Origin: Bacteroidales bacterium UBA3856
Lineage (GTDB): Bacteria > Bacteroidota > Bacteroidia > Bacteroidales > UBA932
Direction of reading: 5' to 3'
Length of the DNA stretch: 9,975 bases
Assembly (NCBI GenBank): GCA_002392525.1
Contig: DGHE01000027.1
Span: 1 to 9,975, forward strand
In this document: positions 5,238-7,798 of the stretch, piece by piece
Position numbering within the stretch: the first letter of the stretch is position 1
How the letters are laid out: each line of letters starts with the position of its first letter
Translations under genes and position numbers: made by a program
Notes under the pieces: generated by a model
Told to the model about the DNA's origin: nothing
What the model saw: only the letters and a program-made list of their open reading frames with translations
Database searches by the model: none

Positions 5238-5259
5238 GTCCCCCCGTGTACGGCGCGGC

Positions 5260-5316
5260 GCTCTGGCCGCCTCAGTTGCTTCGCTCCTGCCGCCTCAGTT
5301 GCTCTGGCCGCTCTGG
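5260..5316. repeat. Short direct-repeat tract abutting element copy 2
   Basis: GCCGCCTCAGTTGCT occurs exactly at 5266-5280 and 5289-5303. GCTCTGGCCGC occurs at 5260-5270 and 5301-5311, with a partial GCTCTGG at 5310-5316. The tract runs up to the terminal repeat of copy 2. On the complementary strand, reading away from the element, it is G/A-biased, which mirrors the G-rich tracts next to copies 1 and 3. No coding content is seen. Confidence 0.75.
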
Positions 5317-5426
5317 TTGTGATGTGTAACTAATTACAAATCAAACAGATATGAAAATTCTCCCCCTCGTTTCGAAGGGGGAGAATTTTTGTAAGCTGTT
5401 ATATATCAGCAAATTGCACATCACGG
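5317..5426. repeat. 110-bp palindromic element, copy 2 (3' of RAYT)
   Basis: The ends TTGTGATGTGTAA (5317-5329) and TTGCACATCACGG (5414-5426) are inverted repeats matching at 10 of 13 positions. The central 13-bp stem pairs 5354-5366 with 5377-5389 (AAAATTCTCCCCC). Its apex TCG-TTT-CGA carries one unpaired A. The hairpin midpoint coincides with the element midpoint, as in the other copies. The element lies between the convergent DUF975 and RAYT genes and has the shape of a bidirectional terminator. Confidence 0.88.
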
Positions 5427-5442
5427 GAACAGAGCAGAAGGT

Positions 5443-6369
5443 TCAGGCTTTCACCTTGGGGATATGCAGGAACTTGCAAATCTGCCCGGGTGTGGCCTGG
5501 GTTCTATTTCTAAACAGGGGATACAGTTCTCTGCGTTTTTCGAGAGGCCAGGACAGGAATTCATGAATATCCGAAAGGCCCTTTTCTTTGATGAGGATCC
5601 GGGCCATTTGAATATAATAGGCATCGGAGCGGCCTTCGAATGTTTCATTAAGATCGTATTCGTGGGTTGTGGTGGAGTGCAGTGCAACGAGATAGTTCTC
5701 GAAGGAGCCATCGAAATAGCGGAGCGCTTCATTGTAATCTATTACGTTATAGGTTGTTATTATAAAGTCTACAAGCTGCTCTCTTTCGCGTAGAGACAGT
5801 TTTGAGGTAATTCTCCTTAGCTGGTTATAAGTGAGCGGCTTTCCCTTCTTATGCTGTGCACGCACCTCCCGCACGGCATTTTTCATGTGCCAGGAAGCTT
5901 CCCTTAAAACCAGTTTGTCCGAGAACGGATGGTCGCTTACGGCATAGGCCAGGAAGCTCCAGCGATAGTCTTCTGCATTTACGGCCAGTTGTCTTTCTAC
6001 CGCATTGTTCCCCACATAAATCAGATTGGTTCTTCCTGCCTTGGCACCTTTCTTTGGGACACTTCCATACGTAGATTTGAACCAGGACATCCTGGTACCG
6101 CAAACCTGATTGTGAGAACGCGAAAACGTACGGTTGGCTTCTCCATAGAAAGCAGATAACTCCTGAACGGTTTCTGCCGTCACAGACATGTGGGTATGGT
6201 CGGGCATGGGACACATGGACAGGACTTTGACCTTATGCCTTGCTGCGGCTGTGCATACGATTGTGAACCAGACAAGATAGTCGCTTTGACTGTAAAAGAT
6301 GACGCCACCATCGGCAGAGCGCTGAAAGCAGTGGTTAAGAATACCACGTTTAAAAGGACGTTGCTTCAT
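5443..6369 (-). CDS. REP-associated tyrosine transposase (RAYT, Y1/HUH family)
   Basis: A 308-residue protein of the IS200-like Y1 transposase superfamily, single-strand DNA nucleases that form a covalent tyrosine-DNA link. The metal-binding motif is MPDHTHM (55-61), with H58 and H60 as the HxH pair; the middle residue is Thr instead of the usual hydrophobic one. The candidate nucleophile is Y118 in LIYVGNNAVE, which aligns with Y115 of E. coli TnpA-REP in its YIYINP motif. EDYRWSF (133-139) continues the usual RAYT pattern. Beyond about 150 there is a long extension, mostly charged and helical, ending in a helix-turn-helix-like stretch (TPGQICKFLHIP, 293-304) that could bind DNA. The enterobacterial protein is about half this length. 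The frame is intact. No clear ribosome-binding site or TAnnTTTG box precedes the ATG. Flanking inverted palindromic elements support the RAYT call. Confidence 0.88.
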   Translation of the reverse strand: MKQRPFKRGILNHCFQRSADGGVIFYSQSDYLVWFTIVCTAAARHKVKVLSMCPMPDHTHMSVTAETVQELSAFYGEANRTFSRSHNQVCGTRMSWFKSTYGSVPKKGAKAGRTNLIYVGNNAVERQLAVNAEDYRWSFLAYAVSDHPFSDKLVLREASWHMKNAVREVRAQHKKGKPLTYNQLRRITSKLSLREREQLVDFIITTYNVIDYNEALRYFDGSFENYLVALHSTTTHEYDLNETFEGRSDAYYIQMARILIKEKGLSDIHEFLSWPLEKRRELYPLFRNRTQATPGQICKFLHIPKVKA

Positions 6370-6389
6370 ATTGTATAAAACAATTTATT

Positions 6390-6406
6390 CCACTGTTTTG
6401 CAGTGG
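6390..6406. other. Small hairpin in the RAYT leader
   Basis: CCACTG (6390-6395) and CAGTGG (6401-6406) form a perfect 6-bp stem with a 5-base loop, 20 bases upstream of the RAYT ATG. It could be a leader structure or an operator half-site pair; nothing else supports a function. Confidence 0.35.
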
Positions 6407-6477
6407 AGGCACTGACGTCCTGTAAACGCTATACAAATTTGGTAAATTCCCAGGAGATAAACAAATCCTGTTTTTGC

Positions 6478-6587
6478 GCGTGATGTGTAAGTTGCGTATA
6501 TACAGTTACTTATAAAATTTCTCCCCGGTCGAAACGACGGGGAGAAATTTCGCAAACAATTGATACATAAGTTGTTACACATCACGC
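6478..6587. repeat. 110-bp palindromic element, copy 3 (5' of RAYT, reversed)
   Basis: The ends GCGTGATGTGTAA (6478-6490) and TTACACATCACGC (6575-6587) are perfect 13-bp inverted repeats. The central stem pairs 6515-6526 with 6539-6550 (AAATTTCTCCCC, 12 bp). The apex GTCG-AAA-CGAC has an unpaired G on its 5' side. On the complementary strand this reads CCCC-GTCG-TTT-CGAC-C-GGGG, nearly identical to copy 1, so this copy is reversed relative to copies 1 and 2. It lies between rimM and RAYT, both on the minus strand, and could terminate the rpsP-rimM transcript. Confidence 0.88.
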
Positions 6588-6778
6588 CCGGACGAAGGGG
6601 CAGGGCAGGGGCCCGGGCCGGGGGGAGCGGGAGGGCCAGGGAGCGGGAGGGCCAAGGGGGAAAGCCGGGAAGAGGGGACCGAAGAGGGGGGCCGAAGGGG
6701 GTGCCGAGGAGGGAGAGGCCAGCGAGAGGCCAGCGAGAGGCCAGCGAGAGGCCAGGGCGCTAGAGGAGCGCTAGAGAA
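6588..6778. repeat. G-rich tract of successive tandem repeats abutting element copy 3
   Basis: About 190 bases of almost pure G/A/C on the plus strand, arranged as consecutive short tandem arrays. A 16-mer GAGCGGGAGGGCCAGG occurs twice (6625-6640, 6641-6656, one mismatch). A 12-13-mer of the type GAAGAGGGGACC occurs three times (6669-6705). An 11-mer GAGAGGCCAGC occurs four times (6713-6756, last copy with one mismatch). A second 11-mer, GCGCTAGAGGA-like, occurs twice (6757-6778). The last array runs over the stop codon of rimM. G-runs at 6597-6625 fit a G-quadruplex motif. Apart from the last bases of rimM, no credible gene is present. Confidence 0.8.
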
Positions 6779-7250
6779 GGCCGTCGGGGATGCGGAGGGT
6801 GAGGATGGAGGCCGATTCGTCGAGGCCCGTGACCAGGTCTTCGTGGAAAGGAAGAAGAACCTCGGTGCCGTCCGGGCGCCGGACCCAGAGGCAGGTGTTG
6901 CCGGGGATATCCTCGTAATCGGTCACAGTGCCGATGAATTCGCCTTCGGGGTTATGGACCTTCCAGCCGGTGAGGTCTTCGCCAGACTCTTCCTCGAAGT
7001 AGTCTGCGTAGATAGTCTGGCCGGAAAGTTCATCGGCGTCCTTCAGGGAGCGGACACCCGTGAGGTGCACCAGGGCCCGGTTGGCGCCCTTTTGCACAAA
7101 AGACTCAAAATAAAAGGGAACCGGCAGTCCATCGAATTCGATGAATACCGGTTCCTGGAGGTCGATATCCTCCGGAGCCACATCAAAGAAACTGATAAGA
7201 AGTTCTCCCTGGGTTCCGTTGGATTTCAGTACCTGAGCAATCCGCAGCAT
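6771..7250 (-). CDS. rimM: Ribosome maturation factor RimM
   Basis: A 159-residue assembly factor that binds the 30S head, contacts uS19 and helps 16S rRNA 3'-domain maturation in the cytoplasm. The N-terminal RimM barrel spans about 1-85 ([37 protein letters not shown]). A PRC-barrel follows (about 92-157: GWKVHNPEGEFIGTVTDYED, then TEVLLPFHEDLV). Its ATG shares one base with the TAA of rpsP (TAATG), so it is translationally coupled to bS16 as in many bacteria. The length is slightly short for the family but both domains are complete. The TAG stop is embedded in an 11-bp tandem repeat at the edge of the G-rich tract, so the extreme C-terminus borders unstable DNA. Confidence 0.95.
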   Translation of the reverse strand: MLRIAQVLKSNGTQGELLISFFDVAPEDIDLQEPVFIEFDGLPVPFYFESFVQKGANRALVHLTGVRSLKDADELSGQTIYADYFEEESGEDLTGWKVHNPEGEFIGTVTDYEDIPGNTCLWVRRPDGTEVLLPFHEDLVTGLDESASILTLRIPDGLL

Positions 7251-7798
7251 TATTCGGCGGCGGGAGCTTCGGTAGCTTCGGCGGCTTCCTCGGCGGGAGC
7301 TTCAGCGGCGGCAGCCTCTGCAGCAGCCTTAGCCTCAGCCTCGGCCTTCTTGGCGGCGATAGCCTTGGCACGAGCCTCGTTTACCTCGGCCTCAGCGGCC
7401 TTGACAGCCTTTGCCTTAGCAATCTCGTCGTTCTTGATGCCAGCCTTCTTGGCAGCGATCTTAGCGTCATGAGCCTCTTTCCAGGCAGCGAACTTGGCAT
7501 CGGCCTGAGCCTCGGTGAGAGCGCCCTTGGCTACACCTTCTGCGAGGTGCTTGCGAAGGAGAACGCCTTCGTAGGAGAGGAGACGGCGGGCAGTGAGCGT
7601 GGGCTGGGCACCGACTTTGAGCCAAGCCAGAGCCTTCTCGCTATCCATAACGATGGTGGCAGGGTTGGTGTTGGGGTTGTAGGAGCCAAGCTGCTCGATG
7701 AATTTACCGTCGCGCGGTGCGCGAGAGTCGGCCACAACAATGTGGAAGAATGCGAAATTCTTCTTTCCGTGGCGCTGGAGTCTGATTTTAACAGCCAT
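7250..7798 (-). CDS. rpsP: 30S ribosomal protein bS16 with long acidic/alanine-rich tail
   Basis: Small-subunit ribosomal protein. Residues 1 to about 82 are the bS16 core ([51 protein letters not shown]). Residues from about 83 to 182 form a low-complexity extension rich in Ala, Lys and Glu, ending in EAPAAE. It should be largely helical and then disordered. E. coli bS16 is about 82 residues; long tails of this kind are common in Bacteroidetes, so this is a lineage trait and not a fusion. First gene of the rpsP-rimM operon, with an exact TAnnTTTG box upstream at 7851-7858. Diverges from the tRNA-Leu gene. Confidence 0.97.

Follow-up and report, generated by a model that had tools for sequence, protein, structure and literature searches.

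RAYT-REP systems are widespread, and they pose the questions of what they are for and of how a RAYT distinguishes its cognate repeat from that of another RAYT. The stretch of Bacteroidales DNA analysed here (9,975 nucleotides, in the following called the window) raises this question for a Y1/HUH transposase gene that is located between two palindromic repeats, with a solo copy, like both flanking ones about 110 nt long, at a distance of about 3 kb from this pair. We assign a probability of roughly 0.8 to the reading, based on sequence comparisons, that the locus is a REPtron/TIRtron-like unit, i.e. a RAYT with flanking members of a dispersed family of 110-nt single-unit palindromes on which it probably acts.

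The protein encoded in the window shows the hallmarks of a Y1/HUH transposase, namely a match to PF01797 (E 6e-5; 23.5 bits compared to a cut-off of 23), an HUH motif with one downstream tyrosine, and a Foldseek match. PF01797 was also found, with E-values up to 0.1, in 45 of the 46 members of the RAYT alignment, and residues M55, P56, D57, H58, H60 and Y118, the latter of which we take, by analogy, to be the catalytic tyrosine, are invariant over all 46 rows. With the NCBIfam model NF047646 (REP_Tyr_transpos), the protein reached 27.4 bits, which is under the curated cut-off of 80. The AlphaFold model built from the 46-row alignment (pLDDT 90.8) was closest in the PDB to 4er8, the complex of the E. 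coli RAYT with REP (TM-score 0.71 by target and 0.40 by query), followed by ISDra2 and then IS608. In terms of architecture, the protein has its Y1 domain at the N-terminus and a C-terminal part of about 160 residues that is mostly helical and for which no Pfam match over cut-off was obtained. A HincII match at residues 175-249 was discarded (16.6 bits compared to a cut-off of 23.7; found in 6 of the 46 members), and 14 further weak Pfam families besides Y1 and HincII appeared in one to three members each.

Table 1 Coordinates of the RAYT gene and the palindromic elements in the window. CM, covariance model.
Feature	Position	Strand	Basis
RAYT (Y1/HUH transposase) gene, 308 aa, intact ORF	5443-6369	minus	PF01797, homologues, model
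HUH motif codons, M55-P-D-H-T-H60	6190-6207	minus	46-row alignment
Y118 codon, presumed catalytic tyrosine	6016-6018	minus	46-row alignment
Palindromic element, RAYT 3' side	5317-5426	.	fold; CM 85.5 bits, itself in training set
Its outer arms	5317-5329 / 5414-5426
Its central hairpin	~5355-5388
Palindromic element, RAYT 5' side	6478-6587	.	fold; CM 81.7 bits, itself in training set
Its outer arms	6478-6490 / 6575-6587
Its central hairpin	~6516-6549
Solo palindromic element, between sugar transporter and DUF2207 genes	2023-2132		fold; CM 83.7 bits, in training set
Its outer arms	2023-2035 / 2120-2132
Its central hairpin	~2061-2094

The three copies of the repeat were recovered with exactly the boundaries given in a preliminary description of this DNA (Table 1), both by repeat comparison and by a covariance model whose training set contains all three of them. 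As single-stranded DNA, the elements fold far better than expected on both strands (z -7.0 to -11.2; 0 of 200 dinucleotide shuffles as good), and the only match at Rfam gathering level within the window was a tRNA. The preliminary description had the flanking pair in opposite orientation, which holds for the window (74% over 114 nt) but not as a rule for the family: among L001-L030, flanking pairs align direct or inverted, L001 and L029 being better direct and L002 better inverted. Since each element is itself palindromic, its orientation is only weakly defined. All three elements of the window are adjoined by low-complexity, G+C-rich or short repeated sequence (2137-2182, 5240-5310 and 6588-6770), the last of these tracts containing an 11-nt repeat at 6710-6753. 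Further downstream in the window, the gene for ribosomal protein S16 (7250-7798, 182 aa) codes for a long Ala/Glu-rich C-terminal extension past the Pfam domain (residues 9-67).

The window RAYT has 276 homologues; the closest of the 120 listed among these is 93% identical, and most of the 120 sit on short contigs. From a scan of a species-genome collection, 102 relatives were confirmed and 80 loci kept, all with record titles naming Bacteroidales or Bacteroidia and 35 naming a ruminant or deer host or stomach. The 23 pattern matches on viral contigs included no relative, and plasmids yielded none. In many of the loci L001-L030, the gene lies between two repeats of about 110 nt with a sequence unlike that of the window. 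Since the window arms, used as exact motifs, found almost nothing across the 80 loci, we searched for elements by structure. Over 1.27 Mb, a finder that relied on pairing rules only reported 81 elements, and a first-order Markov control gave no hit; under the strict rule of the finder, an element was present on both sides of the gene in only 6 of 76 loci. To build the covariance model R1, we used 69 of these finder elements (set A4), leaving out three without the skeleton and others that were near-duplicates or dropped by hand; A4 was chosen by palindromy, so R1 was trained on strongly palindromic examples. Applied to the 80 loci plus the window, R1 detected 203 sites.

For the bracketing count, we used the 76 loci in which the gene has flanks of 250 bp or more in both directions (75 fetched loci and the window; five loci were short of flank), among which orthologues and several loci per genome make the counts non-independent. 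An R1 element was located on both sides of the RAYT in 54 loci, on one side in 20 and on neither side in 2 (L025 and L078), compared to 10 bracketed and 172 one-sided cases among 651 other mechanically called ORFs of at least 200 aa in the fetched loci, RAYT neighbours counted in. The flanking palindromes by which a RAYT/REPtron is recognised are present in 54 of the 76 loci, the window being one of these. Some more distant Y1 loci (L173, L176, L187 and L195) also have R1-like matches on both sides, and a test for repeat pairs spanning the gene, restricted to the plus strand, gave a positive result for 12 of 49 more distant Y1 loci, at least two of which were counted twice. The idea that the elements enclose cargo was dropped: judged by eye from their starts, the ORFs located between elements resemble ordinary host genes, and the neighbours are equal in L010, L015 and L020.

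The anatomy of the element was derived from 193 of the 203 sites (104-114 nt), corresponding to 386 half-elements. Read inward, the consensus of a half-element consists of CCGT, seven variable bases and AA, followed by a spacer that includes TGA..TCAG, then TTA, three bases, AAA and the central stem. Each element contains two paired variable blocks, the outer arms and the central stem, within a common skeleton. Past position 1, the sequence outside the element shows a mild base preference at -1 only, and the elements are discrete units with well-marked ends and one skeleton. Among 141 dereplicated elements, mirror covariation beyond shuffles was detected at positions 2-12 and 33-48 as well as at position 19 (z 3.6); the strongest signals fell in the variable blocks (5-11 and 41-48), those at 33-40 were weaker, with z of only 2.7-3.0 at positions 34, 36, 37 and 39, and no mirror pairing beyond shuffles was found at positions 14-18 and 20-32. 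About 3,150 non-mirror position pairs gave 12 signals above the cut-offs of z 3.5-3.8 (top z 4.8) and no coherent helix. RNAalifold reported double changes in 22 of 26 pairs of A4, in part a result of how this set was selected. Two further types of pairing were considered but are not claimed. IS608 uses base pairing between guide and target; for the elements, a search of this kind returned a few weak non-mirror signals and no clear pairing. Cloverleaf-like side hairpins (TGA..TCA) are conserved without covariation. The absence of a GTAG-type unpaired foot, noted in the preliminary description, is confirmed by the consensus, in which the conserved GT belongs to the paired arm and precedes variable bases that are themselves paired; the elements are not short (20-40 nt) REPs with a GT[AG]G foot.

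The two variable blocks differ from one RAYT to the next. Upstream and downstream elements of one RAYT have identities of 0.88 in the stem and 0.83 in the outer arms, compared to 0.53 and 0.48 between RAYTs (51 loci), and protein similarity correlates with both blocks (77 loci; Mantel r 0.38 for the stem and 0.29 for the outer arms, with 0 of 2000 permutations as high). The elements of different RAYTs mostly differ even in the same genome, as seen in 21 pairs grouped by record title or accession; exceptions are L002/L034 (0.90), L045/L075 and L028/L057 (both 0.80) for the stem, and L037/L045, L035/L041 and L047/L052 (all 0.86) for the outer arms. By these comparisons, outer-arm and stem sequences are specific to the resident RAYT.

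One genome, G004, carries five RAYT matches, 143 strand-matches to R1 and more than 70 element sites, 75 of which were read; this number excludes two listed sites, on C16 and C98. Sorted by block similarity with a set threshold, 19 of the 75 elements were assigned to C80, 18 to C73, 8 to C101 and 2 to C41 (both beside their RAYT), with 28 remaining as 'other'; the threshold was rough, as the upstream element of the C80 RAYT itself landed in 'other'. By this threshold, the C80, C73 and C101 classes each fit one RAYT of the genome. By eye, a class of 15, made up of 12 'other' elements and 3 with the label C73, looks like the element next to the fifth RAYT (C3), whereas 5 'other' elements and 1 labelled C73 form a class with the stem ACGTCTACC, for which no matching RAYT was seen in G004. 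The six elements of the ACGTCTACC class are located at L118, L122, L123, L129 and L140, and a similar element is found at L040:16866. A separate observation concerns a 13-16 nt extension (TGTAATGCCGATG) in a class of 15 copies, present at one end only in 11, at both ends in 2 and at neither end in 2 of them by eye; it occurs in L147, L166 and other stretches of G004 and gives the palindrome a direction.

Within hand-picked class lists of G004, stem identity was 0.76-0.91 and spacer identity 0.47-0.55; between three of these classes, the respective values were 0.12-0.34 and 0.48-0.50. Since stems are conserved within a class and spacers are no more alike than between classes, these values suggest that most dispersed copies were kept recognisable by selection or repeated replacement and do not stem from one recent burst. 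Signs of recent copying are few: of the 2,775 pairs that the 75 copies form, 3 reach an identity of 85% or more (0.95, 0.93 and 0.85), so that some of the copying is fairly recent.

We compared 26 pairs of dispersed elements at orthologous sites, i.e. with both flanks matching. The stems differ (identity of 0.7 or less) in 11 pairs, in 5 of which each element matches the elements of its own RAYT at 0.8-1.0 and those of the other at 0.6 or less; these five pairs come from two sites only (L047 with L045 and L049; L010:8030, L020:7139 and L023:8832 among themselves). At these two orthologous sites, the stem follows the resident RAYT and not the site. In none of the other 6 differing pairs do both elements exceed 0.7 against their own RAYT; of the 15 pairs without a stem difference, 14 have both elements at 0.8 or above against their own RAYT. 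Read by eye, the solo copy of the window and L031:4015 add a third site of this kind: their outer arms are equal and their stems differ, each resembling the element beside its own RAYT.

A clean empty site was not found among these comparisons; the clearest candidates were deletion derivatives or too diverged for a junction, so that a target duplication was unreadable. These deletion derivatives (L015:8462-8575, L019:3343-3456 and L030:6576-6689; L044:9850-9985) retain one arm of an element that is complete in sister loci. Between sister MAGs, a shared left flank and left half-element can be joined to differing right halves and flanks, with loop flips (L005:12601; L006:9418 and 11990; L007:7179 and 12601; L009:2659 and 5231), which could reflect either recombination at the elements or misassembly. 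Using anchors of at least 85% identity, gene-order breaks between MAGs were observed at 22 of 29 element sites compared to 20 of 95 element-free intergenic sites (Fisher 1e-7), a coincidence that we treat as a lead only, as errors of short-read assembly at palindromic repeats could cause the same breaks. A crossover inside the element was not supported by 21 broken pairs, with identities of 0.66 for the near and 0.63 for the far half; in 35 colinear pairs, both halves were at 0.81.

The elements are abundant where relatives of the RAYT occur. All 12 genomes searched hold from 35 to at least 150 R1 strand-matches, and four further genomes 15-85, the number of candidates scored being 150 and most sites matching on both strands. 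By R1, the repeat abundance expected of a RAYT/REPtron is seen in relatives, in 12 of 12 and 4 of 4 genomes; the window itself shows one solo copy. In a family sample of 99 genomes, the RAYT query A3 had a match at 1e-5 in 33, which was strong (<1e-45) in 10; R1 was applied to 80 genomes, comprising all 33 A3-positive and 47 of the 66 A3-negative ones. Elements were found in 10 of 10 genomes with a strong RAYT, 21 of 33 with any A3 match and 4 of 47 without (Fisher 2e-7), i.e. in 10 of 10 strong-RAYT genomes compared to 15 of 70 others; 12 of the 33 genomes with some A3 match had no R1 element. Thirteen of the 15 element-positive genomes without a strong RAYT have a PF01797 match (0.001), the exceptions being G103 and G107. 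In a genus sample of 61 genomes, 36 of 37 RAYT-positive (1e-20) and 12 of 24 RAYT-negative genomes contained elements (Fisher 2e-5). In the only RAYT-positive genome without elements, G148, the best RAYT match is interrupted by a stop. Relaxing A3 to 0.01 revealed distant or partial matches in 8 of the 12 element-positive, RAYT-negative genomes and none in G143, G128, G170 and G127; G143 has at least 63 element strand-matches. Both samples are centred on genomes picked as RAYT carriers (G001 and G112), and genome completeness was not given. MAG incompleteness or loss of the RAYT may account for the elements without a detected RAYT in G143, G103, G107 and others. Co-occurrence is strong but not absolute: with elements in 12 RAYT-negative genomes of the genus, the check suggested in the preliminary description, whether copies are confined to genomes carrying the RAYT, is passed in part only. 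The core of that description, a RAYT with cognate dispersed repeats, is supported by the excess of bracketing over other ORFs, tens of copies per genome, RAYT-specific classes and this co-occurrence.

REPtrons, RAYTs flanked by REPs, were described for gammaproteobacteria together with RAYT-repeat coevolution and a correlation between rayt and repeat abundance (PMC2817692). The present system resembles them in a Y1 RAYT flanked on both sides by genome-dispersed palindromes, in the coevolution and abundance correlation, and in the palindromicity that is kept in changed flanking repeats of orthologous rayts; it differs in that those RAYTs were found in gammaproteobacteria only, in the 110-nt single unit without an unpaired GTAG foot, and in the mostly helical C-terminal part of about 160 aa (PMC2817692). 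In TIRtrons, long TIRs take the place of REPs (PMC3733652). As in these, a RAYT-like tyrosine transposase gene lies here between long inverted repeats unrelated to GTAG REPs; some published TIRs are likewise self-complementary and make up families of moderate abundance, and one genome can contain more than one TIRYT gene and TIR family, whereas one 110-nt skeleton shared by many transposases, with two swappable paired blocks, is particular to the present system as far as that source goes (PMC3733652). The motif GGGGWSAS of many TIRs is absent from our element consensus. TnpA-Y1 subclass 2.6 is mostly from Bacteroidetes, and its genes are flanked by unspecified 'atypical secondary structures' (PMC6006769). 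The present flanking structures share with them the lack of GT[AG]G and the recurrence in the genome, but the window RAYT, with DHTH and YVGNNAV in place of NH[LIV]H and YIH[QN]NP, falls outside subclass 2.6; subclass 2.4 is similar in its Y motif, YIxNNP, but its repeats have GT[AG]G feet, and the median lengths of subclasses 2.6 and 2.4 are 179 and 194 aa compared to 308 aa here (PMC6006769). The suggestion of an undescribed Bacteroidales lineage agrees with our searches of the open-licence literature, in which no description of a 110-nt scaffold without an unpaired GTAG foot was found, but the structures beside subclass 2.6 genes had already been noted (PMC6006769).

Three other explanations of the elements were considered. 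A possibility to which we give rather low odds is that they are mainly host elements, such as bidirectional terminators or chromosome-organising sites between convergent genes, and that the RAYT lies among them or contributes to their maintenance, with mobility being minor or past. The positions of 61 dispersed copies agree with this (31 between convergent, 17 between tandem and 6 between divergent ORFs, 3 inside ORFs and 4 at contig edges), as do the conservation of stems but not spacers within classes and the persistence of elements in G143; it does not account for RAYT genes being bracketed far beyond other ORFs, nor for the two sites at which the stem tracks the RAYT. Terminal inverted arms, a length of about 110 bp, intergenic location, tens of copies and the occurrence in some RAYT-negative genomes are also what MITE-like elements of a DDE transposase would display, with the RAYT having merely inserted between or near them. 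We regard this as very improbable, given the bracketing of 54 of 76 RAYT loci by elements with arms and stems specific to that RAYT and the G004 classes that fit one RAYT each (C80, C73 and C101, and by eye C3). Movement of element, RAYT and element together as an IS-like unit, solo elements being leftovers of its transit, is unlikely as well: bracketing is discrete and the distances on both sides are similar, but some orthologous RAYT loci stay in place across MAGs (the flanks of the downstream element match in L015, L019, L020 and L030), and G004 has far more element sites than RAYT matches.

Judging from known Y1 transposases, the enzyme should act on single-stranded folded DNA. If the locus is a REPtron/TIRtron-like unit, the RAYT would bind the folded single strand of the element, read the conserved unpaired motifs (TGA..TCA and TTA) plus the class-specific stem, and cleave near the CGT/ACG ends, thereby copying or moving the element; the RAYT gene itself would stay put. 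A more speculative extension, which we put forward tentatively, is a lock-and-key arrangement in which the 110-nt scaffold is constant and the stem serves as an exchangeable 'barcode' that is read by one RAYT, probably via the helical C-terminal domain, with up to five mutually specific pairs per genome. Upon drift of the specificity, copies would be replaced or converted in place, and barcodes at orthologous sites would switch with the enzyme. The elements may, in addition, be sites of chromosome recombination. With many diverged RAYTs on one scaffold with a variable stem, several of them per genome, the family offers natural pairs for swap experiments, which can decide whether specificity lies in the stem, the arm or an unpaired motif. 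Should stem replacement between orthologues, observed here at two sites, prove to be general, the concerted evolution of a dispersed repeat would become directly measurable.
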